Notes under the pieces: generated by a model
The model's input: the letters and a program-made list of their open reading frames with translations, nothing else
What the model was told of the DNA's origin: nothing
Databases searched by the model: none
IMG/VR virus record: IMGVR_UViG_3300027896_000052
Coordinates: 1 to 55,286 of that record
Origin: a virus
Length of the DNA: 55,286 nucleotides
Direction: 5' to 3' (one strand)
Program-made: the position numbers and the translations under genes
In this document: positions 2,052-53,825 of the stretch, in pieces
Position numbering within the stretch: position 1 is the first letter of the stretch
How the letters are laid out: every line of letters begins with the position of its first letter

Positions 2052-4772
2052 CTATAATTTTTTTCCGAGGGCTCCGTCCGCGAAAACGCCCGTTGTGTCG
2101 CAAAGATAAGCATATACCCGCTCCTCGGGCCCGGCTGTGCTCCAATTCGACGCCATCGTCGGATCACCCAAGATGAAAAGTCCGGTCAGAATCCAGGTCA
2201 GATCCGAGCAGACGACTGCGATTTCCATCTGTTCGAGGTCGACCGTCAGGCTTTCGATATACATCGGCCGGCCCGCTTCGCCGGCTCCGATCGGGCTGAC
2301 TCCAAAGGGGTCCTGCAGTTCGATGTTATCCAAAAGGTCCAGGGAGTCCAGCCAATCGATTGATAACGTGAATCTGAATTTGTTATCGCCGAAAGCATAG
2401 CGGTCTAGCTCCTCGGCTGCTCGGATGGCGATCCAAGCCGCGGAATCCGTCCAGGGGAATGTCGCCGGCGACGTCGGCTCGAGGACCGCGTCCAGGATCG
2501 ATTGCGAGGACAAGTTTTCGAAGGTATCCCCGCCCTGGCAGAGATTCGCCGTCGGTACGAAATCCCAGGCGGCCTTGATCCGGTTGAAAGCGACGTTGCT
2601 CACATATTCGCGCCCGGGGTGATCCTTGCAGTCGAGCTGGGCCCATACCGTCTTGAAATTTGAAAGGCTGGCGTAATCCTTCCGGGCGATTTTTATTTTC
2701 CCGATCGCGGTGAACGCGGCCAGGATCCCGAAGGTGTAGAGGAGCTGCCTGTAATACTCCTCGCATGCGGATTCTGTCGTTAGAGCCAGCTTCCCGATCG
2801 TCCCAAAGCCGGCCGCGGCGAAGGTTGCCGCCAGCGTGTCGAAACTCGCGGTTTCCAAATGGGAGACCGGGACCCCGACCAAAAATTCCAGGAAATATTC
2901 GAGGACCCGGGCAGGATTCTGGACGTAGCCGTTGACCGAATCCCAGGCCGGGAAAGAATAGCCCCGGCAGTTGAAGGTGACCTCATTGTCCCCCTGGCTT
3001 CCGGTGAAGGTGATCAGGGTCTGGCCCAGGCCGTCGTATGAAATGGAATAATCCGCTCCGGCAGCCTTTAAGATCCCGGCGGAATAAACCTCATCGACCG
3101 CATAGAGGCTTCCCCGGGCTGCCAGGTAGATGAAGTTCGCGGTATCGACGCAGGGAGCCTTTATCGCTCCGGGTTTGTCTCCGGCAGTCCAGGAAAAGGT
3201 CCCCAGAAGATTGGGCTTCGGGGCGTTGATATCTTTCTCATAGATGTTCGGAAATTCGGCCGCGGTGCAGCGGTATTCCGGAAGTTCCTTTTGAAAATAT
3301 TTCCAGCCGATATCTCGGAGTTTTGCAGAAAAGACCGGGCCGTCGAGGTTGTAATCATCCACGATGAATTTCGCTAGGGCGTGTTTCGATGCCTCCGTTT
3401 CATCGGACCATAAATAATAAGCCCCGACCCCCAAATTTTTCGCGTAATTGGAAAAGAGAAGACTCGAAAATTCCCGATCGACATTCGTCAACTTGATGTC
3501 GGCGTCGGAGCCCAGAAAGGTCCCGAGCCCGGATGAAACGCTCCGGGTGAAATTGCTGAGGCTCAAGATCCGGCCATCATAGAAAACCAGCGGGGCCCGC
3601 ATGTCGATCGGGGCATAATATTTTTTGATCGGCCATTCCCAATCCGTCCCCGGAATCAGAATCCTTTTCCCTCCTCCGCCGACCTTGAGTTGGAGCCGGT
3701 TTCCGATCGTCATGGCCCCGGTCCCGGCGTCGACTCGCCAATCGCCGGCGTAGGCCGAGGGCGTATTGGTAGAATTCAATTTTGTCGAAAGCCAGGCTTT
3801 TTTGAGATTGAGGACGTAGGTCCCGACCGGAAGAGCCGGCATCGAGGCGATCGTGATTTGGCTATTCGAATCGATTACGAAAGTCCCGACGGCTCCCGGG
3901 ACGACCCAGCTTCCGCCGGCTTCCTCGAGGGCAAAGGTCCCCTCGCCGGCGGTCCCTATAAAATTGATTTCCGTTACGTAATCCTTCCAGCCGCCGCCGC
4001 CTGGCGTCGAGCTAAAGGCATTGTTGGCTGCATTCGTGATTTCCGTGTCATCGTTATCGAATCCCAAGCCGGTCAGGACCAGGGCATCCCCGCCGGCTGG
4101 GGCGACTTTCAGCTTTGAAAGCGAATTGACGCAGGGGTTAAAAAATCGGACCTTAATTTCGGAGAAAATCGCCCGGACGATCAGTTTCGTTCCCGCTCCG
4201 ATGTCGCCGCCGTTCGGCTGGCTCATTCGGACGGTCAGGCCCATGTCGAAAAAATAGCCCTGAAGCATATTGTCCTGGGTCCCGAGCCCGGCTTTATTCG
4301 GGCAGCCGTAGAGGGTATAAACCTTCGGCATGTCGGCGAAAACAAAGAGCTTCCCGTCCTCCCATCCGCCGGTCCCGGCGAGGGGTGGGTAGGAGGTCCA
4401 ATCCTTCCCGGTGTCATAGACCTGGCCCGTAAGGACCGCCATGTTCGATTTGTCCCCCGGCGTGTACTTGGCCGTTGTCCGGACGGTCGAAATCGTGTTG
4501 AGTTTCCCCGAGGTGTTCGAGTCGACGGAATAAGCCGCCGTCCACCAGAAGTCGATTGCTTCATCGGCTCCGGCCAGGAGGGCGTAATCCGCCGCGGAAG
4601 GCTTGGCGATCCCGTATTCCCAAAAATCCCAGGCCGCGCTGATGTTCTTTTGAAAGCCGATATAAAATCCCGGGACCACATAGGCCGCCCAATCCGCCTT
4701 TGCGTTCCCGGGCGGATTCGTGACCAGGGCGGAGGCGTGATCGATGGCCGTGAAAGATCGGTACGGAATCAT
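2052..4772 (-). CDS. Large tail-tip / baseplate hub protein
   Basis: 906 residues, overlapping the previous gene by ATGA. In order after the tape measure it takes the place of the siphovirus tail-associated or hub protein. Residues about 215-330 resemble an IPT/TIG immunoglobulin-like domain (GGDALVLTGLGF, later PALPVGTYVLNL). The second half (YYAPIDMRAPLVFYDGRI, a DNVEL-like IELQDPFG stretch, YIESLTVDLEQMEIAVVC) resembles the ring-forming part of hub proteins. Probable structural protein at the tail tip that carries the fibre proteins encoded next. No lytic motif seen. Confidence 0.7.
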   Translation of the reverse strand: MIPYRSFTAIDHASALVTNPPGNAKADWAAYVVPGFYIGFQKNISAAWDFWEYGIAKPSAADYALLAGADEAIDFWWTAAYSVDSNTSGKLNTISTVRTTAKYTPGDKSNMAVLTGQVYDTGKDWTSYPPLAGTGGWEDGKLFVFADMPKVYTLYGCPNKAGLGTQDNMLQGYFFDMGLTVRMSQPNGGDIGAGTKLIVRAIFSEIKVRFFNPCVNSLSKLKVAPAGGDALVLTGLGFDNDDTEITNAANNAFSSTPGGGGWKDYVTEINFIGTAGEGTFALEEAGGSWVVPGAVGTFVIDSNSQITIASMPALPVGTYVLNLKKAWLSTKLNSTNTPSAYAGDWRVDAGTGAMTIGNRLQLKVGGGGKRILIPGTDWEWPIKKYYAPIDMRAPLVFYDGRILSLSNFTRSVSSGLGTFLGSDADIKLTNVDREFSSLLFSNYAKNLGVGAYYLWSDETEASKHALAKFIVDDYNLDGPVFSAKLRDIGWKYFQKELPEYRCTAAEFPNIYEKDINAPKPNLLGTFSWTAGDKPGAIKAPCVDTANFIYLAARGSLYAVDEVYSAGILKAAGADYSISYDGLGQTLITFTGSQGDNEVTFNCRGYSFPAWDSVNGYVQNPARVLEYFLEFLVGVPVSHLETASFDTLAATFAAAGFGTIGKLALTTESACEEYYRQLLYTFGILAAFTAIGKIKIARKDYASLSNFKTVWAQLDCKDHPGREYVSNVAFNRIKAAWDFVPTANLCQGGDTFENLSSQSILDAVLEPTSPATFPWTDSAAWIAIRAAEELDRYAFGDNKFRFTLSIDWLDSLDLLDNIELQDPFGVSPIGAGEAGRPMYIESLTVDLEQMEIAVVCSDLTWILTGLFILGDPTMASNWSTAGPEERVYAYLCDTTGVFADGALGKKL

Positions 4773-44390: not shown

Positions 44391-44569
44391 GTCCCCGCTT
44401 GAGCCGAAAGAACGATGATCTCCGATATCGTCGCCGGCTCGCCTTTGCCCTTGGCGATTTCCAGGATCCTGATGTCCTCAATCCCGGTCGTCAGGGAAAG
44501 AATCCGATAGAGATCGGGCCTGGATTTCGCCTTCGCCAAAAGAGCCTTCCGGAGGGCTTCGATTTCCAT
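44387..44569 (-). CDS. Unknown small protein
   Basis: 60 residues from ATG 44569, which overlaps the stop of the hydrolase-like gene (TGATG). Helical start (EIEALRKALLAKAKSRPDLY), then ILEIAKGKGEPATISEIIVL. Not recognised. Confidence 0.62.
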   Translation of the reverse strand: MEIEALRKALLAKAKSRPDLYRILSLTTGIEDIRILEIAKGKGEPATISEIIVLSAQAGT

Positions 44570-45942
44570 CACTTGGGCCCCCCGGCGTCCGGATACTTCC
44601 TCCGGATCTCGGCTCCCCAGAGAGTCGTAGCGATCAGGGCGTAGACGTCGAGGCTTTCGGGGAGAATCTGGTCCGGGGCCTCGCCATCGGAGATCTCGCC
44701 GGGCAGGAATTCGATGTGATCCAGCCGGCGCTGGGAATACTGCGGCGTCCCGTACTTCGCCCACCAGGCCGTGATCAGCTTGAGGCGTTCCGCGGGCGTT
44801 GCCTGGCACCTGGGGTATTTCGTGCAGTAGCCCTTCTTGCCTTCGACCCGGACCGTGGCGCCGTCATCGGAATAGCCATAGGCCCGGATGTCGCTCCCGA
44901 AGGCCGGATCGAATTCCTCGACGAGGGCCTGCCAATGGACCTGCATGACGGCGTCCCGGATCCCGAAGATCTTGGAGACATCGGGCGAAAGCCCACCATG
45001 GATCCAATGCCCGGTATTCGGGGCCGCGGAGAACGGCGTCGGGAGGTAGCTGGCCAGATGGAGCTTTTCTCCCAGAGGAATGACGACTCCTCGGACCCAG
45101 GCTTCCATGTTCGGACCCATGGCGTCGTTCGGATACATGAGTTCGTTTCCGATCCCGATCCGATGCCCGCCGGAAGCGGGGAGGAGCTTCATGATCCGGT
45201 CCGCCCATTGGAAGAAATATCCCCTCGCCCGGTCGCTCGAGTCGTAAATGCCGTTCACGCTGTTCACGTTCTTGGCCCAGGGCGAGTTCGCGGCGTCGCA
45301 GTTGTCGAAGAGGTCGAAATGGATCCGGACATGGTAGGGCATCAAGACGTCTCTGAGCCGCTCGATGGCCAGGTCGAAGGCCGGATTCGGAACGTCCAAG
45401 TTGAAGGACGAGGGGTCCCTGGTGTACGGCGCCGTCGTCGTGAGGATGGCCTGATAGGCGGGGTCGTCCCAGCACATCATGATCCGGACGTAATCGATGC
45501 CGGCCAGGGAGATCTTCTGGGCGAAGTTCTCGAGTTGCTTATCCGAATAATGGTGGAGGAGAACGTGGCCCGAAAGCCAGGCGACCGTCATTCGGGGCAT
45601 CCAGTCGGGCTTCGGCGTGTCGGCCGGATAGGTCTTCGCGCAGGTAGTGCATTGAGTCGTCGGCTCCTCCCCGACCTTGAAAGTTCCCATGATCTTCTGC
45701 AGACAGAAGGGGCCTGGGAGTAGACCGCTGACCCGGCAGACCTCGACTTCGACGACCTGGCCGGGATCCGTCTTGTGAAGCTCGCAGAGCGGCGGGTCGA
45801 CCCAGACGTAATACTGGCGGGTGATCTTGGTCGGGCACCAGGGCCGGGCGGCCTGACCGCTATCGGCGCAGACCGTGACCTTGTGCGTCTGGCAGCAGAT
45901 CCCGAGTTTTTCGCAGAGCCATTTCTTCGTGCTGTTTTTCAT
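44569..45942 (-). CDS. Cys-rich TIM-barrel glycoside hydrolase-like protein
   Basis: 457 residues; the start at 45942 is chosen for its AAGGAG site (an in-frame ATG lies 39 bases upstream). Residues 1-110 hold two Cys repeats, VCADSGQAARPWCP and VCRVSGLLPGPFCL, each followed by P..x..C..H/C, resembling the C-terminal Cys motif of class A penicillin-binding proteins. From about 120 a clan GH-A-like (alpha/beta)8 barrel follows: IDYVRIMMCWDDPAY, HVRIHFDLFDNCD, HRIGIGNELMYPND (Asn-Glu acid/base) and RRLDHIEFLPGEIS (candidate nucleophile). No signal peptide. Polysaccharide or peptidoglycan cleavage is plausible. Confidence 0.68.
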   Translation of the reverse strand: MKNSTKKWLCEKLGICCQTHKVTVCADSGQAARPWCPTKITRQYYVWVDPPLCELHKTDPGQVVEVEVCRVSGLLPGPFCLQKIMGTFKVGEEPTTQCTTCAKTYPADTPKPDWMPRMTVAWLSGHVLLHHYSDKQLENFAQKISLAGIDYVRIMMCWDDPAYQAILTTTAPYTRDPSSFNLDVPNPAFDLAIERLRDVLMPYHVRIHFDLFDNCDAANSPWAKNVNSVNGIYDSSDRARGYFFQWADRIMKLLPASGGHRIGIGNELMYPNDAMGPNMEAWVRGVVIPLGEKLHLASYLPTPFSAAPNTGHWIHGGLSPDVSKIFGIRDAVMQVHWQALVEEFDPAFGSDIRAYGYSDDGATVRVEGKKGYCTKYPRCQATPAERLKLITAWWAKYGTPQYSQRRLDHIEFLPGEISDGEAPDQILPESLDVYALIATTLWGAEIRRKYPDAGGPK

Positions 45943-45952
45943 GATATTCTCC

Positions 45953-46135
45953 TTATTTTCCTCGGTCCTCTTTCCCGTCATAAAAAAGGCTGATTCCTAA
46001 TTCTCCTTCGACCCGATGTTTGTACTTTTTGGCGTGAATCTTTGCTATTGCCTGGGCGTTTTTATAACTATATGTTTCCCATCCGCAATCTTGGCACCTC
46101 ATGATCGCGTGAACGACCCCATAGCCGTATTTCAT
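45953..46135 (-). CDS. Small zinc-finger-like protein
   Basis: 60 residues from ATG 46135 (TGATG overlap; a TTG one codon earlier is possible). CQDCGWETYSYKNAQAIAKI with HAKKYKH gives a C-x2-C plus His pattern like C2H2-type single fingers found in phages. Unknown role. Confidence 0.65.
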   Translation of the reverse strand: MKYGYGVVHAIMRCQDCGWETYSYKNAQAIAKIHAKKYKHRVEGELGISLFYDGKEDRGK

Positions 46136-47590: not shown

Positions 47591-47892
47591 TTGGCCGGCT
47601 TCCCGTTCCGAGCCTTGCCCGCGAGGCTGCCAATGACATCCGCGGCGTCGACCGGGGCCGCCGTGTCTTCGCCGGCCGGCTGGGGGCCCGCGGCGGGCGG
47701 GGTCCCCGGCGTCGCGTCGCTCAATTTGAACGTCGGCTCCCCGCCCGTCAGCTTTTCTTTCTCGAGCCGGAGCTCGAGGTCGTCGAGGCGCTCGATTTCC
47801 TTCTTGAAGCCGCGCTCGATTTGGTCGATCACGGCGGCCTTCAGCTCCCGGAGCGCGATCCGCTCCCGCGTGATGTGTTCTTGTAGATCCAT
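47587..47892 (-). CDS. Unknown small protein with coiled coil
   Basis: 101 residues with AAGGAGG. N-terminal helix QEHITRERIALRELKAAVID and ERLDDLELRLEKEKLTG, then a Pro/Ala/Gly tail. ATGA-coupled to the next gene. Not recognised. Confidence 0.65.
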   Translation of the reverse strand: MDLQEHITRERIALRELKAAVIDQIERGFKKEIERLDDLELRLEKEKLTGGEPTFKLSDATPGTPPAAGPQPAGEDTAAPVDAADVIGSLAGKARNGKPAK

Positions 47893-47905
47893 AATATCCT
47901 CCTTT

Positions 47906-48910
47906 TTAACCGAAAATTTCGGTCAGCTTTTTGACTCGATACTCGTTCCTATCCTGCATTGTAGCTGGCGTGTCGCCTTTATATTCGGCTTCAAAGGCTG
48001 CATCGATTTCTGGCAGCATGATCAGGGCCGGACCCGCCAGGTCATCCTCAAATTTCCGCGTCCGGCCGACCATTCGGTCCCGGACCATGGCTTCCTCTTT
48101 GTTCGCCGATCGGCTGGGGTCCCGGCTGTCCGCCTCGAGCCTCCCGAATTTTGATCTGAAAGTCGCCGCGCTGAGAATGTTTTTCGCCCAGAAAGGGTCG
48201 CGCTGGCTCCATTCCAAAATCTTCATGATAGTCTTGAAGGGAATCCCCTTTCCCTCGATCCCCTTCCCTTCCATGATCCTGAATTCGTGAGCCCAGGCTT
48301 CGAGTCGGTTAGCTCCGGTGAGAACATGGTACGGAACATTTTCTTTTACCGCTGCCTCGAGGTATTTCGATAGGGCAAGGTGCCGTTTCTCATATTTGAA
48401 TTTTCCAATTGGCTGAGGATCAGGATCCGAAGGTGGGAGCTTATTTCCTATCCTCTCCTCTTCTCTATTCTTCTCTAATCTTATGTCCTCTTTCCCGGGT
48501 GTCGTGTCCGATTTTCCGGACATGGGGTCCGGGATTTCAGCCATCCTTCTCCGATGCCTATCGGAAAGGGAATAAGTTTCTGTACTGATAACGTAATAAA
48601 CTCCAGGTGCCGTCTCCCTTATTTTATTTACCTTTTCGCTCAGGCAGATGTCGATTACCATCCGGAGTTTATCCTCCGGGACGCAAAACATTCCGGCGAG
48701 TTGAGAGATCGGGTAGGGGGTCGTCTCATTTGCCCGGATGTACCCCCCGTCTTTTTTGGAGAGGGTCAGGAGGTCTGCGAAAATTCCCCGGAGATCTTCG
48801 ATGAAATTACCTTTTTCGTCCCGGATGATCAATTCGTGGCGGGTCGATCCAAAGAGCCATTTATCAATATAAAATGGGTACCAGGTATCGATTTGCTTAC
48901 CGCGCTTCAT
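47906..48910 (-). CDS. Replication initiator / replisome organiser-like protein
   Basis: 334 residues. The N-terminal 100 residues (WYPFYIDKWLFGSTRHEL; DLLTLSKKDGGYIRANETTP; LAGMFCVPEDKLRMVIDICL) match the winged-helix replisome organiser domain of phage O/DnaD-type proteins. A linker rich in Pro/Asp follows, then a DnaD/DnaB2-like part (FKTIMKILEWSQRDPFWAKN with AATFRSKFGRLE). No helicase or primase is encoded, so it should recruit host replication proteins. Expression is probably controlled by the structured leader just upstream. Confidence 0.78.
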   Translation of the reverse strand: MKRGKQIDTWYPFYIDKWLFGSTRHELIIRDEKGNFIEDLRGIFADLLTLSKKDGGYIRANETTPYPISQLAGMFCVPEDKLRMVIDICLSEKVNKIRETAPGVYYVISTETYSLSDRHRRRMAEIPDPMSGKSDTTPGKEDIRLEKNREEERIGNKLPPSDPDPQPIGKFKYEKRHLALSKYLEAAVKENVPYHVLTGANRLEAWAHEFRIMEGKGIEGKGIPFKTIMKILEWSQRDPFWAKNILSAATFRSKFGRLEADSRDPSRSANKEEAMVRDRMVGRTRKFEDDLAGPALIMLPEIDAAFEAEYKGDTPATMQDRNEYRVKKLTEIFG

Positions 48911-48924
48911 GCTTCCCTTTCTTC

Positions 48925-49038
48925 AAATAAAAATTCCCGGGCCGCCCCCCTTTCGCTTCCTGTGAGAGAACGCGGCTTTGTAGGCAGAGGGCGACGCCGG
49001 GAATTATTTTCTTTGGGCATTTTTGCGTTCTCTCACAG
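48925..49038 (-). promoter_or_regulatory. Structured leader with interleaved inverted repeats (attenuator-like)
   Basis: Minus-strand RNA. Stem 1: CTGTGAGAGAACGC (49038-49025) pairs perfectly with GCGTTCTCTCACAG (48973-48960), 14 bp. Stem 2: AATTCCCGG plus GTCGCCC (49005-48989, one bulged C) pairs with GGGCGGC plus CCGGGAATT (48947-48932), 16 bp including one G-U pair, followed by TTTTTATTT as in an intrinsic terminator. The arms alternate (1-2-1'-2'), so they form a pseudoknot or exclude each other. It lies between a promoter and the replication gene. Confidence 0.8.
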
Positions 49039-49042
49039 TCCC

Positions 49043-49071
49043 ATCATCTTCTTGCGAAGAGCGGATGTCAA
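49043..49071 (-). promoter_or_regulatory. Promoter of the replication gene leader
   Basis: Minus-strand TTGACA (49071-49066), 17-base spacer, GATGAT (49048-49043; 4 of 6 consensus). The expected start site is near 49036, exactly where the first arm of the leader begins. The -35 box lies in the last codons of the 65-residue gene. Confidence 0.65.
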
Positions 49072-49265
49072 GCCCTATTTTTATGACGATCTCCGGGTTT
49101 TTCGATCCAGATCTGAAGGAGCAAGGCCAGGAGTTTTCCCTCGAGCTGGACCGCTTCCTTGACTGTCAGATGGACGCCGATCGTCTTCCCAAAGCCCAGG
49201 AAGATCCGTCGACGTTTCTTGTCTCGGGTCCGGATTTCGTGCTTGGTGAGCTCGACTTTGATCAC
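49068..49265 (-). CDS. Small protein after exonuclease
   Basis: 65 residues from a GTG at 49265 overlapping the exonuclease stop (GTGA). Sequence IKVELTKHEIRTRDKKRRRI then FLGFGKTIGVHLTVKEAVQL: basic and compact, ending in a helix. Not recognised; possibly a nuclease partner given the translational coupling. Confidence 0.65.
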   Translation of the reverse strand: MIKVELTKHEIRTRDKKRRRIFLGFGKTIGVHLTVKEAVQLEGKLLALLLQIWIEKPGDRHKNRA

Positions 49266-50317
49266 TTCCCGGCCCGCTCGATCGAGGTCATGGTGATCTC
49301 GTACTTCCGCATGTACTTCTGCTTTTCCTCTTTCGGGACGTCGTAGGCCGTCATGTTCCTGGGGTTGCTGTTGATCTCGATCCCGGCCGCCAGGGCGTTC
49401 AGGCCGAAGTACCGGCCCGGCTTTTTGTTGTCCCCGACCAGCTCCTTGTGCAGGGCATCGAAGGCCCGGCTGGCATCCTTCAGATCGAGGTACCGCTCGA
49501 GCGTCGGGATATCTTCCTTCGGGACCTCCCGCCAACTGGGATTGAGAGCCTTCAGCGGGGCGCAGAGGTGGAGGAAATCGCACATCCCGCAGATCTGGTT
49601 GTGGTAGGGGATCGGCTCCGGCAAGGTCCCGGCTTTGAAATGTTTGTTCACAGTCCGGGCCTTGGCCGTGTCCAAGTCCGCCAGATCATAATCCGGGACC
49701 ATGGGCAGGATCCGGGGCCGCTTCCCGAAGGTCGTTATTCCCAGGAAACCGCCGGGCTCGCCCATCATGAAGAGGTAGAGGTTAAGCTGGGAGACCATCT
49801 TCTGGATCCACCACGACCGGCTGGCCTTGATCTCCTCGATCGTTTCGTGGCTGTCCCAGTACTGCGGATTCATCGATTTGATCTCGAGCGGGTATCGCTT
49901 CGATCCGACCCGGACCATTCCGTCGATCTTGCCGCTGATCTGGAATTCGTCCCAGGTGAACCGCTGCTGGGCGAGCTCGATATCGTAGCCCGCTTTCGAA
50001 AGCATCATCTTGAAGCGGCGCTCTTCCTCCGTTCCAGCCTCGACCCGGTACTTGCCGTCGAGGCTGATGGGCTTCCGGTCCTTCCAGTTTCGACGGATGT
50101 ACGTCAGGTTCCGGACGCAGGGGTGGTGGATTTCCGAGGCCCAATTGTTCGACTCATGGTTCGAAGGCGGCCAGGGCTTGTGATCGTCATCGATCTTGGC
50201 GCCGATCTCCCCGGCGATCAGGGTGAGCTCGGCCAGGAGCTTTTCGTCCGACGTCGCCATCCCGGCCGGCGGCATCAGTTTCGCCTCGGGAACGAGGGGG
50301 GCTTGTTCTTCCATCAC
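49262..50317 (-). CDS. PD-(D/E)XK exonuclease (Cas4/RecB-like)
   Basis: 351 residues, overlapping the upstream gene by ATGA. Core FTWDEFQISGKIDGMVRVGS and KRYPLEIKSMNP gives the Asp and ExK of the nuclease. A Cys cluster is visible: HHPCVRNLTYIRR upstream, and NQICGMCDFLHLCAPLK downstream, the 4Fe-4S layout of Cas4/AddB-like nucleases. Recombination exonuclease acting with the neighbouring gene, as in phage SSAP-exonuclease pairs. Confidence 0.85.
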   Translation of the reverse strand: MMEEQAPLVPEAKLMPPAGMATSDEKLLAELTLIAGEIGAKIDDDHKPWPPSNHESNNWASEIHHPCVRNLTYIRRNWKDRKPISLDGKYRVEAGTEEERRFKMMLSKAGYDIELAQQRFTWDEFQISGKIDGMVRVGSKRYPLEIKSMNPQYWDSHETIEEIKASRSWWIQKMVSQLNLYLFMMGEPGGFLGITTFGKRPRILPMVPDYDLADLDTAKARTVNKHFKAGTLPEPIPYHNQICGMCDFLHLCAPLKALNPSWREVPKEDIPTLERYLDLKDASRAFDALHKELVGDNKKPGRYFGLNALAAGIEINSNPRNMTAYDVPKEEKQKYMRKYEITMTSIERAGK

Positions 50318-51492
50318 TTCCCCCTGGTACCGCGGAATTTTTGTTGGGCTTCGCCAGCAGGATCCGGGCCGCCCTTGAAAAGGCCGGCGGCGGGATCGCC
50401 CTTCGGGGCGTCGGCCTTATCCGGCTTCTCGTCTTCGGGGCCGATTTCCTCATCCGCATCGGACCACTCGGCTTCCGCCGTTTCTCCGATCTCCGCCCGC
50501 TCCTCCTCCGGCTCGGCCTCGCGGATGACCTCCGCCTTGACGATGAGCTGATCGCTGCCTCGCGCAGCCTGGCGCATGACCTGATTCAGGTCCGGGTAGC
50601 CCATGTCTGTCCGATAGCCGTAGACCTCGACGTAGGCGACCTGGCCCTGGGCTTCCGTGGCGCCGGCCTTGGCGAAGACAAGCCCGACGCCGATCGCCGG
50701 GTGATCCTTCAGGATGTTCCGCTCGACGATCTTCTGGGCGATCCGGTCCCCGAATCTCTGCCGCTGCGTGTGTTCCTCGAGGCAATCGAGGATGACCGGA
50801 TCCTCGTAATTCGCCCAGATTCCCAGGGGATCCTCGATCGGGAAGAAGACCCAGCTTCCTTTTTTTGCCGGCTTGTCCTCGGCAATTCCGACGACCGCCG
50901 CGTTCGGGTTGGCTGACTGTCCGGTATCGACCCGCTTCCCGCTTTCGTCTTCCTCCCACTTCGTCTTCTTGAGCTTGGCCTGGATGCTCTGGATGAAGTA
51001 GGTATAGGGATTGTAGAAGAGCGTCTTGTCGATGGCGACGACGTTCCCGGCGGGCGAATATCCGAGCCCGATCTTCCGGACGATGACGCTCTCGATCGAC
51101 CGGGTCCGCTTGTTGCGCTCGACGTAGGGATTCGGCTGCTCATGGCCGTCGACGATGACCGCCGGCGGCGTCATGATCGAGATCGAAGCGACCTTGTTGA
51201 GCTGGGTATAGCCGACCGAGGTGATCGGATACTTCTTTTCGGTCTTGTGCGTCTTCGGATCGTACTTCCCGGGCATCGAATAGAAATGCCCGAGCTTCTC
51301 GAAGAGCGTGATCGTCGCCTTGATCGGGCGCATGATCTGCCCGCGATTGACCTTGACGTAGACCGTCCCGAAGTCCGCGCTGAGGGCGAGTTTCTGTCCC
51401 GACGTCTGGCCGATCTCCTGGGCCGCCGGCGGCGGGGTGCCGGGCTGGGAACCAGGCTTCGGATCCGTTCCGTTTTTCTTTTCTTCTGTCAT
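50314..51492 (-). CDS. Unknown protein, possible ssDNA-annealing partner
   Basis: 392 residues with AAGGAGG. Segments FGTVYVKVNRGQIMRPIKAT, YTQLNKVASISIMTPPAVIV, SIESVIVRKIGLGYSPAGNV and LFYNPYTYFIQSIQAKLKK suggest a beta/alpha core of about 250 residues; the ends are Pro/Glu/Asp-rich. It directly precedes and overlaps the exonuclease, the place of RecT/Erf-type annealing proteins, but I see no clear family motif, so this is context only. Confidence 0.6.
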   Translation of the reverse strand: MTEEKKNGTDPKPGSQPGTPPPAAQEIGQTSGQKLALSADFGTVYVKVNRGQIMRPIKATITLFEKLGHFYSMPGKYDPKTHKTEKKYPITSVGYTQLNKVASISIMTPPAVIVDGHEQPNPYVERNKRTRSIESVIVRKIGLGYSPAGNVVAIDKTLFYNPYTYFIQSIQAKLKKTKWEEDESGKRVDTGQSANPNAAVVGIAEDKPAKKGSWVFFPIEDPLGIWANYEDPVILDCLEEHTQRQRFGDRIAQKIVERNILKDHPAIGVGLVFAKAGATEAQGQVAYVEVYGYRTDMGYPDLNQVMRQAARGSDQLIVKAEVIREAEPEEERAEIGETAEAEWSDADEEIGPEDEKPDKADAPKGDPAAGLFKGGPDPAGEAQQKFRGTRGK

Positions 51493-51530
51493 CAGGACCT
51501 CCTTATTGATCTAAAAATTGGGATTGAGAA

Positions 51531-51740
51531 TTAGCGGGAGAGTCTGCGCTCCCTCTCTATGGCCTTGGCCGCCGATTTGAATGCGGCCTGGACATGGAGT
51601 TGGAGGACCCGGCGGGCATAGGACGAGACCTCCCGCCCGTCTTTCTCCGCCAAGATTTTGATGCGGGAATGGAGCGCCTCGTCGACGCGGACGGCGATCG
51701 AGATCATCGGCGGCTTTTTCTTTTTGCCTTCGTTTTCCAT
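51531..51740 (-). CDS. Ribbon-helix-helix DNA-binding protein
   Basis: 69 residues with GAGAGGAG. PPMISIAVRVDEALHSRIKI gives the ribbon and first helix, LAEKDGREVSSYARRVLQLH the second helix, as in Arc/MetJ/CopG proteins. First gene under the leftward promoter, so likely an autoregulator binding the palindromes between the divergent promoters. Confidence 0.82.
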   Translation of the reverse strand: MENEGKKKKPPMISIAVRVDEALHSRIKILAEKDGREVSSYARRVLQLHVQAAFKSAAKAIERERRLSR

Positions 51741-52061: not shown

Positions 52062-52334
52062 ATGTCAACCCCAGCGAACATCATTATGAAGGAAGCCGAA
52101 GTCGAGCAGACTGCCGCCGAGGCGATGGGCCTGACCAAGTCCCTCACGGTCAAGGAATTCTTGGCCGGTTCAGCTTCGAAGACCCCGGTCTTCATCTTCG
52201 CGCGCGGCCGGATGAGCCGGGTCGGTCACATCCGCTGGCCGGAAACCGATCCGTGGGTCGTCTGTCCCGACGAGAATGGAGGCTTCGGGATTTCCTATTG
52301 CGTCCACTACGGTACTCGCCTTTGGACGAGATGA
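52062..52334 (+). CDS. Unknown small protein, first plus-strand gene
   Basis: 90 residues with GAGGAGAAAACGAA before the ATG. Acidic N-terminal helix (IIMKEAEVEQTAAEAMGLTK), then SKTPVFIFARGRMSRVGHIR and DPWVVCPDENGGFGISYCVH. Probably early-expressed. Not recognised; takeover or anti-defence functions are common for such genes, but nothing here shows it. Confidence 0.72.
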   Translation: MSTPANIIMKEAEVEQTAAEAMGLTKSLTVKEFLAGSASKTPVFIFARGRMSRVGHIRWPETDPWVVCPDENGGFGISYCVHYGTRLWTR

Positions 52335-52340
52335 GCCGAA

Positions 52341-52395
52341 AAGGGCTGGGAGGCCCTTCGTCCGGGTTGACCGCCCGGACCTGATGAGGCAGGTC
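52341..52395 (+). other. Tandem hairpins between two plus-strand genes
   Basis: Three stems in 55 bases: AAGGGC/GCCCTT (52341-52346 with 52353-52358), GTCCGGG/CCCGGAC (52360-52366 with 52374-52380) and GACCTG/CAGGTC (52378-52383 with 52390-52395). The last two share bases and cannot both be complete. Possibly RNA processing or translational control of the next gene. Confidence 0.6.
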
Positions 52396-52416
52396 AAATC
52401 TTGAAAAGGAGAAAAC

Positions 52417-52650
52417 ATGGACAAGATGAAGGCTGAACGAATCGCGCGGTTCCTCTTGGCGGAGGGGATCAAGGCGAAGGTCCAGGGAGTGGGCGCAGGA
52501 GTCTGGGAGGTAATGATTCTTGGGGATTGCCGCGGGGCGAATGGTGCCGAGCCGGGAAGATACGAATTGATGATCGGGGCCGGTTCCTTCTCTTTCGGGA
52601 ACGTCCTGCATGGCGATCCCGCCGTCTTCGATTATGTCGAGGTCCTCTGA
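52417..52650 (+). CDS. Unknown small protein
   Basis: 77 residues with AAAGGAG. Starts DKMKAERIARFLLAEGIKAK and continues with a beta-rich part (VWEVMILGDCRGANGAEPGR, YELMIGAGSFSFG). Overlaps the next gene by TGATG. Not recognised. Confidence 0.7.
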   Translation: MDKMKAERIARFLLAEGIKAKVQGVGAGVWEVMILGDCRGANGAEPGRYELMIGAGSFSFGNVLHGDPAVFDYVEVL

Positions 52651-53132: not shown

Positions 53133-53825
53133 ATGGTATACTCATCCCAGATGAAAAGCATCAGCGTCTATGGTCTTTATTCCACAGAACAGGGGACGTC
53201 TGTCGTCCGCTATGTCGGGCAGACGAAATATCCCTTAAACCAGCGGCGGAATGCTCATGTCAAACGGTCCCTGGGAAAAGCGGCCATTACTCATCTGCAT
53301 CGCTGGGTCCGGGATGTCTATTCGCGAGGCTTCGAGGTCAAGGCGATCCTCTTGAAATCCGGGGCTCATTGGAATTCGGATGAAATTGAATTTATTAGAA
53401 AATTCCGAGCGATGGGGATGGCCCTCACGAATTCCACGGACGGAGGGGAGGGGTGCTTGAATCCATGCCCGGAAATGAGGTCCAAAATCAGCGGATCATT
53501 AAAGGGAAAGCCCCTCCCCTTGAAGACCCGGCAGAAGATGAGTGAGGCTCACAAGGGGAAGGCCCGGTCCCGTGCGATATGCCGAAAAATTAGCAAGGGT
53601 TTGAAGGGCAATAAAAATGCCCTTGGCCGGGTATGCTCCCAGGAAACGATCCGAAAATTGAGCGAGGCCCACAAGCGGGAAAACCTGTCGGCCGAAACCC
53701 GCCGCAAGAATAGCGAATCACATAGAAGGGAAAACTTGTCGGCCGAAACCCTCCGTAAGCGGAGCGAGGGCTCAAAGGCTATGTGGAAACGAAAGAAGGG
53801 GAGGGACTCCGATGGTCGCCCTTAA
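53133..53825 (+). CDS. GIY-YIG homing endonuclease with NUMOD3 repeats
   Basis: 230 residues from ATG 53133 (or Met7 at 53151). The catalytic domain has VYGLYSTEQGTSVVRYVGQT (GIY-YIG variant, YG-L ... YVG), NQRRNAHVKR and HWNSDEIEFIRKF with the catalytic Glu. From residue 110 come about five NUMOD3-type DNA-binding repeats (SGSLKGKPL, MSEAHKGKA, LSEAHKREN, NSESHRREN). The last two repeats are nearly identical (RRENLSAET). It lies free-standing directly beside the variable tail locus, whose divergence begins 10 bases after its stop. Likely a mobile selfish gene. Confidence 0.9.
   Translation: MVYSSQMKSISVYGLYSTEQGTSVVRYVGQTKYPLNQRRNAHVKRSLGKAAITHLHRWVRDVYSRGFEVKAILLKSGAHWNSDEIEFIRKFRAMGMALTNSTDGGEGCLNPCPEMRSKISGSLKGKPLPLKTRQKMSEAHKGKARSRAICRKISKGLKGNKNALGRVCSQETIRKLSEAHKRENLSAETRRKNSESHRRENLSAETLRKRSEGSKAMWKRKKGRDSDGRP
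53134..53142 (+). promoter_or_regulatory. Possible extended -10 promoter of the endonuclease
   Basis: TGGTATACT fits the extended -10 form (TGnTATACT) but there is no convincing -35. Transcription would begin near Met7 (53151), giving an almost leaderless message. Freestanding homing endonuclease genes often have such internal promoters. Weak evidence. Confidence 0.35.

Follow-up and report, generated by a model that had tools for sequence, protein, structure and literature searches.

A probable transcription attenuator with interleaved arms in the leader of a phage DnaD-like initiator gene

Replication initiator genes of plasmids are among the closest described parallels to the leader analysed here. 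The repY-repZ system of ColIb-P9, with its leader ORF and pseudoknot, is antisense-controlled and works at the level of translation, through pairing of a loop with the ribosome site. Plasmids also meter replication by attenuating initiator genes (PMC5703833); in the cited passages the pT181 repC and pIP501 repR attenuators are switched by a counter-transcribed RNA (PMC5703833, PMC4878617), and at repC the terminator's 5' arm is taken up in pairing with a pre-emptor located upstream (PMC5703833). Structured leaders are likewise described for phages. In the cited account of Gifsy-1 isrK-orf45-anrP, transcripts reading through the IsrK terminator stay translationally silent until bound in trans by the short RNA; anrP, described there as raising the antiterminator AntQ, does not belong to the replication genes (PMC4825925). 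The cited text on T4 gene 32 has a leader pseudoknot that is bound by gp32 itself and represses translation (PMC3014915), and that on T4 I-TevI has a hairpin that hides the ribosome site only on transcripts from upstream promoters (PMC2988022). STAXI, as presented in its source passage, is a pseudoknot repeated two or three times (PMC2864571). Our literature search, which ran largely outside subscription journals, found no description of leader control on phage DnaD-like initiators among the papers listed.

The locus lies in virus record IMGVR_UViG_3300027896_000052, of which the whole 55,286-base stretch (hereafter the window) was analysed, with the leader read on the minus strand (Table 1). 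The gene behind the leader matches families of replisome organizers and DnaD-like helicase loaders (PHROG 4880, 2.2e–16; PHROG 2514, 2.5e–16). Its promoter-like site, TTGACA-17-GATGAT, scores 10/12 (shuffles of the 601-base region hold a mean of 0.3 such sites) despite a poor –10 box, and by its position predicts a transcription start inside arm B1. The original prediction was thus right to set a perfect 14-bp stem at the expected start site: B1 and B2 are a perfect inverted repeat of that length. The other stem, A, is terminator-like as had been proposed, with TTTATTT directly after it just 5' of the initiator start codon, but it is not an uninterrupted 16-bp helix; it consists of 9 bp, a 1-nt bulge and a further 10 bp, including some G-U pairs, and ends 21 nt upstream of the gene. 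Read along the transcript the arms run B1-A1-B2-A2, so that the observation of interleaved arms is confirmed. Rfam gave no match to this leader at the gathering score or up to E = 10, in keeping with the earlier remark that no known riboswitch class was recognised in it.

Table 1. Features of the initiator gene and its leader in the window
Feature	Position	Strand	Remarks
Upstream small ORF, GTG start, 65 aa	49068..49265	(-)	stop overlaps –35; context only
–35 hexamer TTGACA	49066..49071	(-)	overlaps stop codon of upstream small ORF
–10 hexamer GATGAT (4/6 match)	49043..49048	(-)	17-nt spacer; predicted start near 49036
Arm B1 CTGTGAGAGAACGC	49025..49038	(-)	at predicted 5' end of transcript
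Leader ORF, 37 codons, predicted MPKENNSRRRPLPTKPRSLTGSERGAAREFLFEEREA	48907..49020	(-)	TGA overlaps ATG of initiator
Arm A1	48986..49005	(-)	outer 49005-48997 AATTCCCGG, bulge 48996, inner 48995-48986
Arm B2 GCGTTCTCTCACAG	48960..48973	(-)	within loop of A
Arm A2	48932..48950	(-)	inner 48950-48941, outer 48940-48932 CCGGGAATT
U-rich tail TTTATTT	48925..48931	(-)	directly after A2
Shine-Dalgarno-like AAAGGGAAG of initiator gene	48912..48920	(-)	
DnaD-like replication initiator / replisome organizer, 334 aa	47906..48910	(-)	PHROG 4880, PHROG 2514

Elsewhere in the window, on the plus strand, a Type II hammerhead ribozyme match (52334-52398; 46.6 bits against an Rfam gathering score of 37) lies about 20 nt upstream of ORF 52417-52650, and ORF 53133-53822 carries a NUMOD3 motif (E = 2.7e–4) and is perhaps a homing endonuclease.

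The interleaved arrangement exceeds what chance would give. No repeat as long as B arose in 2000 dinucleotide shuffles of the 161-nt leader, and B is the sole perfect repeat of at least 13 bp with a span up to 150 in the 55,286 bases; its 14-mer has no second copy in the window, even allowing 3 mismatches. Folding energy alone is less telling, its z depending on the stretch chosen: –3.07 for 48920-49012, which contains A (2 of 200 shuffles fold as well), –1.95 for the whole 131 nt (7 of 200) and a not outstanding –1.17 for 48920-49000 (22 of 200). None of 3000 shuffles of the window leader reproduced the joint arrangement of B1-A1-B2-A2 with a U tail, and 1 of 3000 did so for the leader L084 from another phage. 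Among 1414 ORF-upstream regions it was matched five times, by four copies of the window or L084 leaders and by L054, a match that we rejected for its simple-sequence repeats. The B 14-mer was also considered as a shared site, and its occurrence in 70 viral-contig stretches, one copy in each, was read as chance.

Relatives of the initiator were located through its conserved N-terminus; the C-terminal parts of the window protein and its relatives differ, which suggests domain exchange. The corpus comprised 57 pieces from 28 phage records (1,046,746 bases), nine of the records being covered over part of their length and the 6-kb record G027 being excluded. A general interleaved-helix score, which none of 200 shuffles reached for the window, L102, L092 or L097, failed on L084, whose overlapping arms let 100 of 200 shuffles match it; a terminator-anchored scan took its place. 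In strict form this required a hairpin with a U tail, a B helix of at most –17 kcal/mol reaching from upstream into the loop, a promoter of at least 10/12 and an ATG. Eight elements in five of the 28 records came through, against 0 and 0 in two block-shuffled corpora, a contrast that is partly circular because elements had already been seen when scan and filters were written: the window, L084 and L102 were known before the scan, and L099, L103 and G009_4 before the promoter and ATG filter, only G008 and G009_5 being recognised with the full filter. Looser limits gave 10 elements in the real corpus and 1 and 1 in the shuffled corpora. The strict carriers are the window and records G007 (L084), G008 (L098), G010 (L103) and G009 (L099/L122), the last with four elements. 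The reverse layout, with the loop pairing downstream, was found with a good promoter only in the G009_4 element, read the other way.

No strict element occurred in 12 public phage stretches (231,691 bases), which gave three weak matches only. A further 1,176,069 bases, including at least 120 tail-motif loci and three of the public phages, gave five filtered matches, one of them plausible (L221, about 3720-3870, minus strand). It precedes a DnaD-like gene and a gene that by eye reads like a DnaC-type loader; we did not count it, its 5' hairpin being able to kiss the terminator loop and its promoter scoring only 9/12.

What the elements share is layout. In the AT-rich phage of L084 the same design is written in other letters: promoter TTGACA-18-TATAAT, B arms GGAAACCGCAGAG and CTCTGCGGTTTCC, A arms GGGCTGG and CCAGCCC followed by GTTTTTATTTT, and 22 nt from A2 to the ATG. 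Over the eight elements B1 starts 33–43 nt past the start of the –35 box, or about –3 to +7 relative to the predicted transcription starts; the linker between B1 and A1 is 16–24 nt and mostly A-rich; and the end of A2, with its U-rich tail, stands 17–22 nt upstream of the ATG in seven of the eight (9 nt in the other). Pairwise likeness is 41–60%, in our judgement little more than chance for such composition, and no conserved aptamer sequence is present among the members. An eight-way sequence alignment was not meaningful. Rfam yielded nothing up to E = 0.5 for the elements of L099, L103 and L084, the stretches that the search covered (L098 and L122 lay outside it).

The genes that follow are of several kinds. 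An element stands directly before the initiator in only two of the 28 records (the window and G007). In G010 it precedes a REase/DUF559 gene, itself upstream of the initiator, and in G008 a 73-aa ORF upstream of the initiator. Record G009 (IMGVR_UViG_3300033145_001062) holds one full element before an 84-aa ORF two genes upstream of the initiator and three before HNH endonuclease genes, along with one partial element (L099 2065-2170) in which no B or promoter was seen. The suggestion that the structure sets initiator dosage therefore survives in part: the layout in the window fits an attenuator on the initiator, but elements also precede HNH endonuclease genes and so are not specific to initiator genes.

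The original prediction had not included the leader ORF, an open frame of 37 codons that starts 4 nt after B1 in the window and spans A1, B2 and A2 up to the initiator ATG. A leader ORF starting in or just after B1 and ending near the main start codon is found in six of the eight elements, the start lying 2–5 nt after B1 in five. With the end required to fall within –12 to +20 of the main start, a limit set post hoc, shuffles expect 1.2 of eight (P ≈ 1.4e–4). The two that fail are L084, with a frame ending at +46, and L122_5, with only six codons from the ATG; L099_3 ends at +16, inside the limit. Over 22 leaders the same post hoc limit gave 12, with L099_2 a miss; shuffles expect 3.6. The L082 frame, counted among the 12, resembles the 3' part of a larger gene upstream (compare window ORF 44569-45981); leaving it out makes 11, and the P of 11 or more in 22 is 1.6e–4. 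Between the paralogous elements G009_1 and G009_3 the sole gap inside the leader frame up to A2 is of 3 nt.

Some other leaders seen on the way differ in structure. L102 (1491-1609) has a U-tailed hairpin before the initiator whose loop is complementary over 11 bp to the segment directly 5' of the ribosome site; it stands out from shuffles in the interleaved-helix score, but its promoter reaches only 8/12. In L113 (about 540-662), by eye, the loop of a hairpin before the initiator is complementary over 8 bp just 5' of the ribosome site, and its best interleaved-helix score, reached by 156 of 200 shuffles, is not outstanding. Each has a leader ORF ending at the start codon, and the pair may represent a loop-to-ribosome-site variant. 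L002 (1992-2080) and L003 (4919-5001) are leaders with strong hairpins and no U tail; their small ORFs are similar (MNLFRESVARRRGQTRPLPPG... and MNSFRESEARRRGRSRPLPPG), the L003 frame missing the –12 to +20 limit.

Folding was calculated as nested minimum-energy structures, without pseudoknots. Before A2 is made, the complete B helix is in the minimum-energy nascent fold of all eight elements. For the finished leaders, A is favoured at equilibrium in four by 3.5–7.0 kcal/mol (A / B in kcal/mol: window –40.8 / –33.8; L099_1 –37.3 / –30.8; L099_3 –32.4 / –28.9; L103 –35.8 / –29.3) and B in the other four by 3.1–7.4 kcal/mol (L084 –17.4 / –24.8; L122_4 –23.5 / –28.5; L122_5 –24.2 / –27.8; L098 –29.6 / –32.7), so the energies do not fix the direction of the switch. 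Several A folds have an inner stem that uses B2 bases, and in L084 the arms share two bases, so that both stems cannot fully form together. Given these shared bases, the two folds are rivals, with a head start for B.

Compensatory changes in related phages had been set as a test of the structure, and they are seen in one paralogous pair. When G009_1 and G009_3 are aligned by sequence alone, B1 and B2 fall in register and none of the 12 B pairs is broken; both bases differ in five pairs and one base in two. With slid partners pairing falls to 29–42%. As only two sequences are involved and 24 of 500 shuffles also reach this result, we count it as good but small evidence, and it bears on the class and not on the window's own leader. 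Only this pair was used for covariation. The window leader yielded no close relative: protein and alignment queries of viral contigs gave only remote leaders, two genome-contig scans gave none, and the phage records held no match to the window initiator protein or to 47600-51740. A sibling contig of the L099 phage, 99.96% identical over the aligned 5147 bases, was useless for the purpose. The attenuator or switch geometry first proposed from the window is thus strengthened by recurrence, by one compensated pair and by two nearly balanced rival folds.

We think it probable that the window element attenuates transcription of the replication initiator gene close to its promoter, the 5' end of the transcript pairing with the loop of a terminator-like hairpin. 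Termination at A, the assignment of B to the ON state and the ribosome as input are our inferences. B1 would emerge first, followed by the leader start codon and A1, and then by B2; as B2 is made before A2, B would close first. Closed B would block terminator A by topology and through the bases shared with the inner part of A, and transcription would continue. A ribosome sitting at the leader start, or anything else that masked B1, would allow A to form and transcription to stop about 110 nt from its start; once under way along the leader, the ribosome would lie over A1 and B2, and A would again be kept from forming. Translational coupling to the initiator would be an added output. Because B1 lies just 5' of the leader ORF start and the ORF runs through A1, B2 and A2, ribosome loading or stalling is the likeliest input, and the attenuator is probably tied to translation of the leader ORF.

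The same parts could instead form a translational switch without termination. Whether hairpin or pseudoknot, helices A and B would then gate the ribosome sites of the leader ORF and the initiator; translation of the initiator would be coupled to that of the leader ORF, much as plasmid RepZ is controlled, and the U tail would be incidental. The overlap of the window leader ORF with the main start, the placing of B1 immediately ahead of or across most leader starts, and the ribosome-site complementarity of the L102 loop all speak for such a switch; it has no need, however, of a U-rich tail recurring at a near-constant distance from the ATG, and in the window the main Shine-Dalgarno is covered by neither arm, which together make it rather unlikely in our view. 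Far less credible is a role of the inverted arms as DNA, in the form of operator or origin sequences bound by a repressor or by the initiator. One arm does sit on the start site, and initiators may bind near their own gene; but the arm sequences differ among the four elements of a single phage, which one protein would hardly read alike, the G-U pairs in B and the one-sided changes that yield G-U fit RNA rather than DNA symmetry, and the U tail is on the sense strand.

We give as little credence to the view that an ordinary terminator or stable hairpin is flanked by complementary segments through chance. Isolated oddities turn up, the simple-sequence L054 among them, and of 19 matches in the looser filtered scan only eight were kept, the other 11 being judged chance for a weak promoter or a weak A; against this stand the shuffles of the window leader, the recurrence and the covariation. 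A small stable RNA of about 110 nt, acting in trans with B guarding its 5' end and with the gene dependent on leak-through in the manner of IsrK, would suit the good promoters, the terminator-like end and the 5' end inside a helix, and the cited account of Gifsy-1 provides a precedent (PMC4825925). We nevertheless hold it improbable, since elements so little alike are unlikely to have a common target in trans and each precedes a start codon at a nearly fixed distance from its tail.

Read as an attenuator, the element can be set beside the described systems. With ColIb-P9 repY-repZ the window shares a predicted leader ORF that ends at the initiator start and so may be coupled to it, and long-range pairing; the loop, however, pairs with the 5' end in the window and next to the initiator ribosome site in L102, so RepZ-type control resembles L102 (and, by eye, L113) more than the window. 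To judge from the cited passages, pT181 and pIP501 share with it a terminator-like stem close ahead of the start codon in an initiator-gene leader, and an alternative pairing that keeps this stem from forming (PMC5703833, PMC4878617). The rival helix of the window differs in joining the 5' end to the terminator loop (1:3 vs 2:4): it does not take the 5' arm of the terminator, as B2 lies in the A loop and overlaps only the inner part of A. Those plasmids also use an antisense RNA, whereas the window element, L103 and L084 show no sigma-70-like antisense site of at least 9/12; near the other five elements there are sites of 9–10/12.

The phage systems overlap with the element in part. Gifsy-1, as far as its cited description goes, has a promoter and a terminator in a phage leader where read-through and alternative structures occur and where the stop codon of a small ORF overlaps the start of the following one (AUGA), but differs in its paired structures and in the control of translation in trans (PMC4825925). 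T4 gene 32 likewise combines a phage replication gene with interleaved stems in the leader; its control is translational repression by bound gp32, and the cited text mentions no terminator tail for it (PMC3014915). The homing-endonuclease genes I-TevI, mobE and segB of T4 are described in the cited passages as having structured leaders (PMC2988022), and here elements stand before three HNH genes. Local transcripts would keep the 5' arm, unlike those of I-TevI, because B1 starts at the predicted start site; by the predicted starts, the loss of that arm, of the kind seen with T4 late promoters, does not apply to the eight elements. STAXI, in its cited description, is a pseudoknot-type structure that likewise lies near genes for DNA-binding or DNA-handling proteins, as against the single interleaved pair with promoter and U tail found here (PMC2864571). 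We file the element as a variant of the transcription attenuator and not as a member of any of these families.

More tentatively, the elements may form a class of phage leader RNA that has no name so far and is coupled to a leader ORF. The first 10–22 nt of the transcript would snap onto the loop of a nascent terminator (1:3 vs 2:4), and transcription of replication-initiator and homing-endonuclease genes would be decided by ribosome loading within a second or two of promoter escape. Being defined by geometry and not by sequence, such leaders would tend to be missed by covariance-model libraries. The element is short and portable, and its strong predicted arms, interleaved layout and leader ORF make it directly testable in a reporter. 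With the same design recurring in different letters in four other phages, it is probably a real switch, predicted to set the amount of a replication protein.
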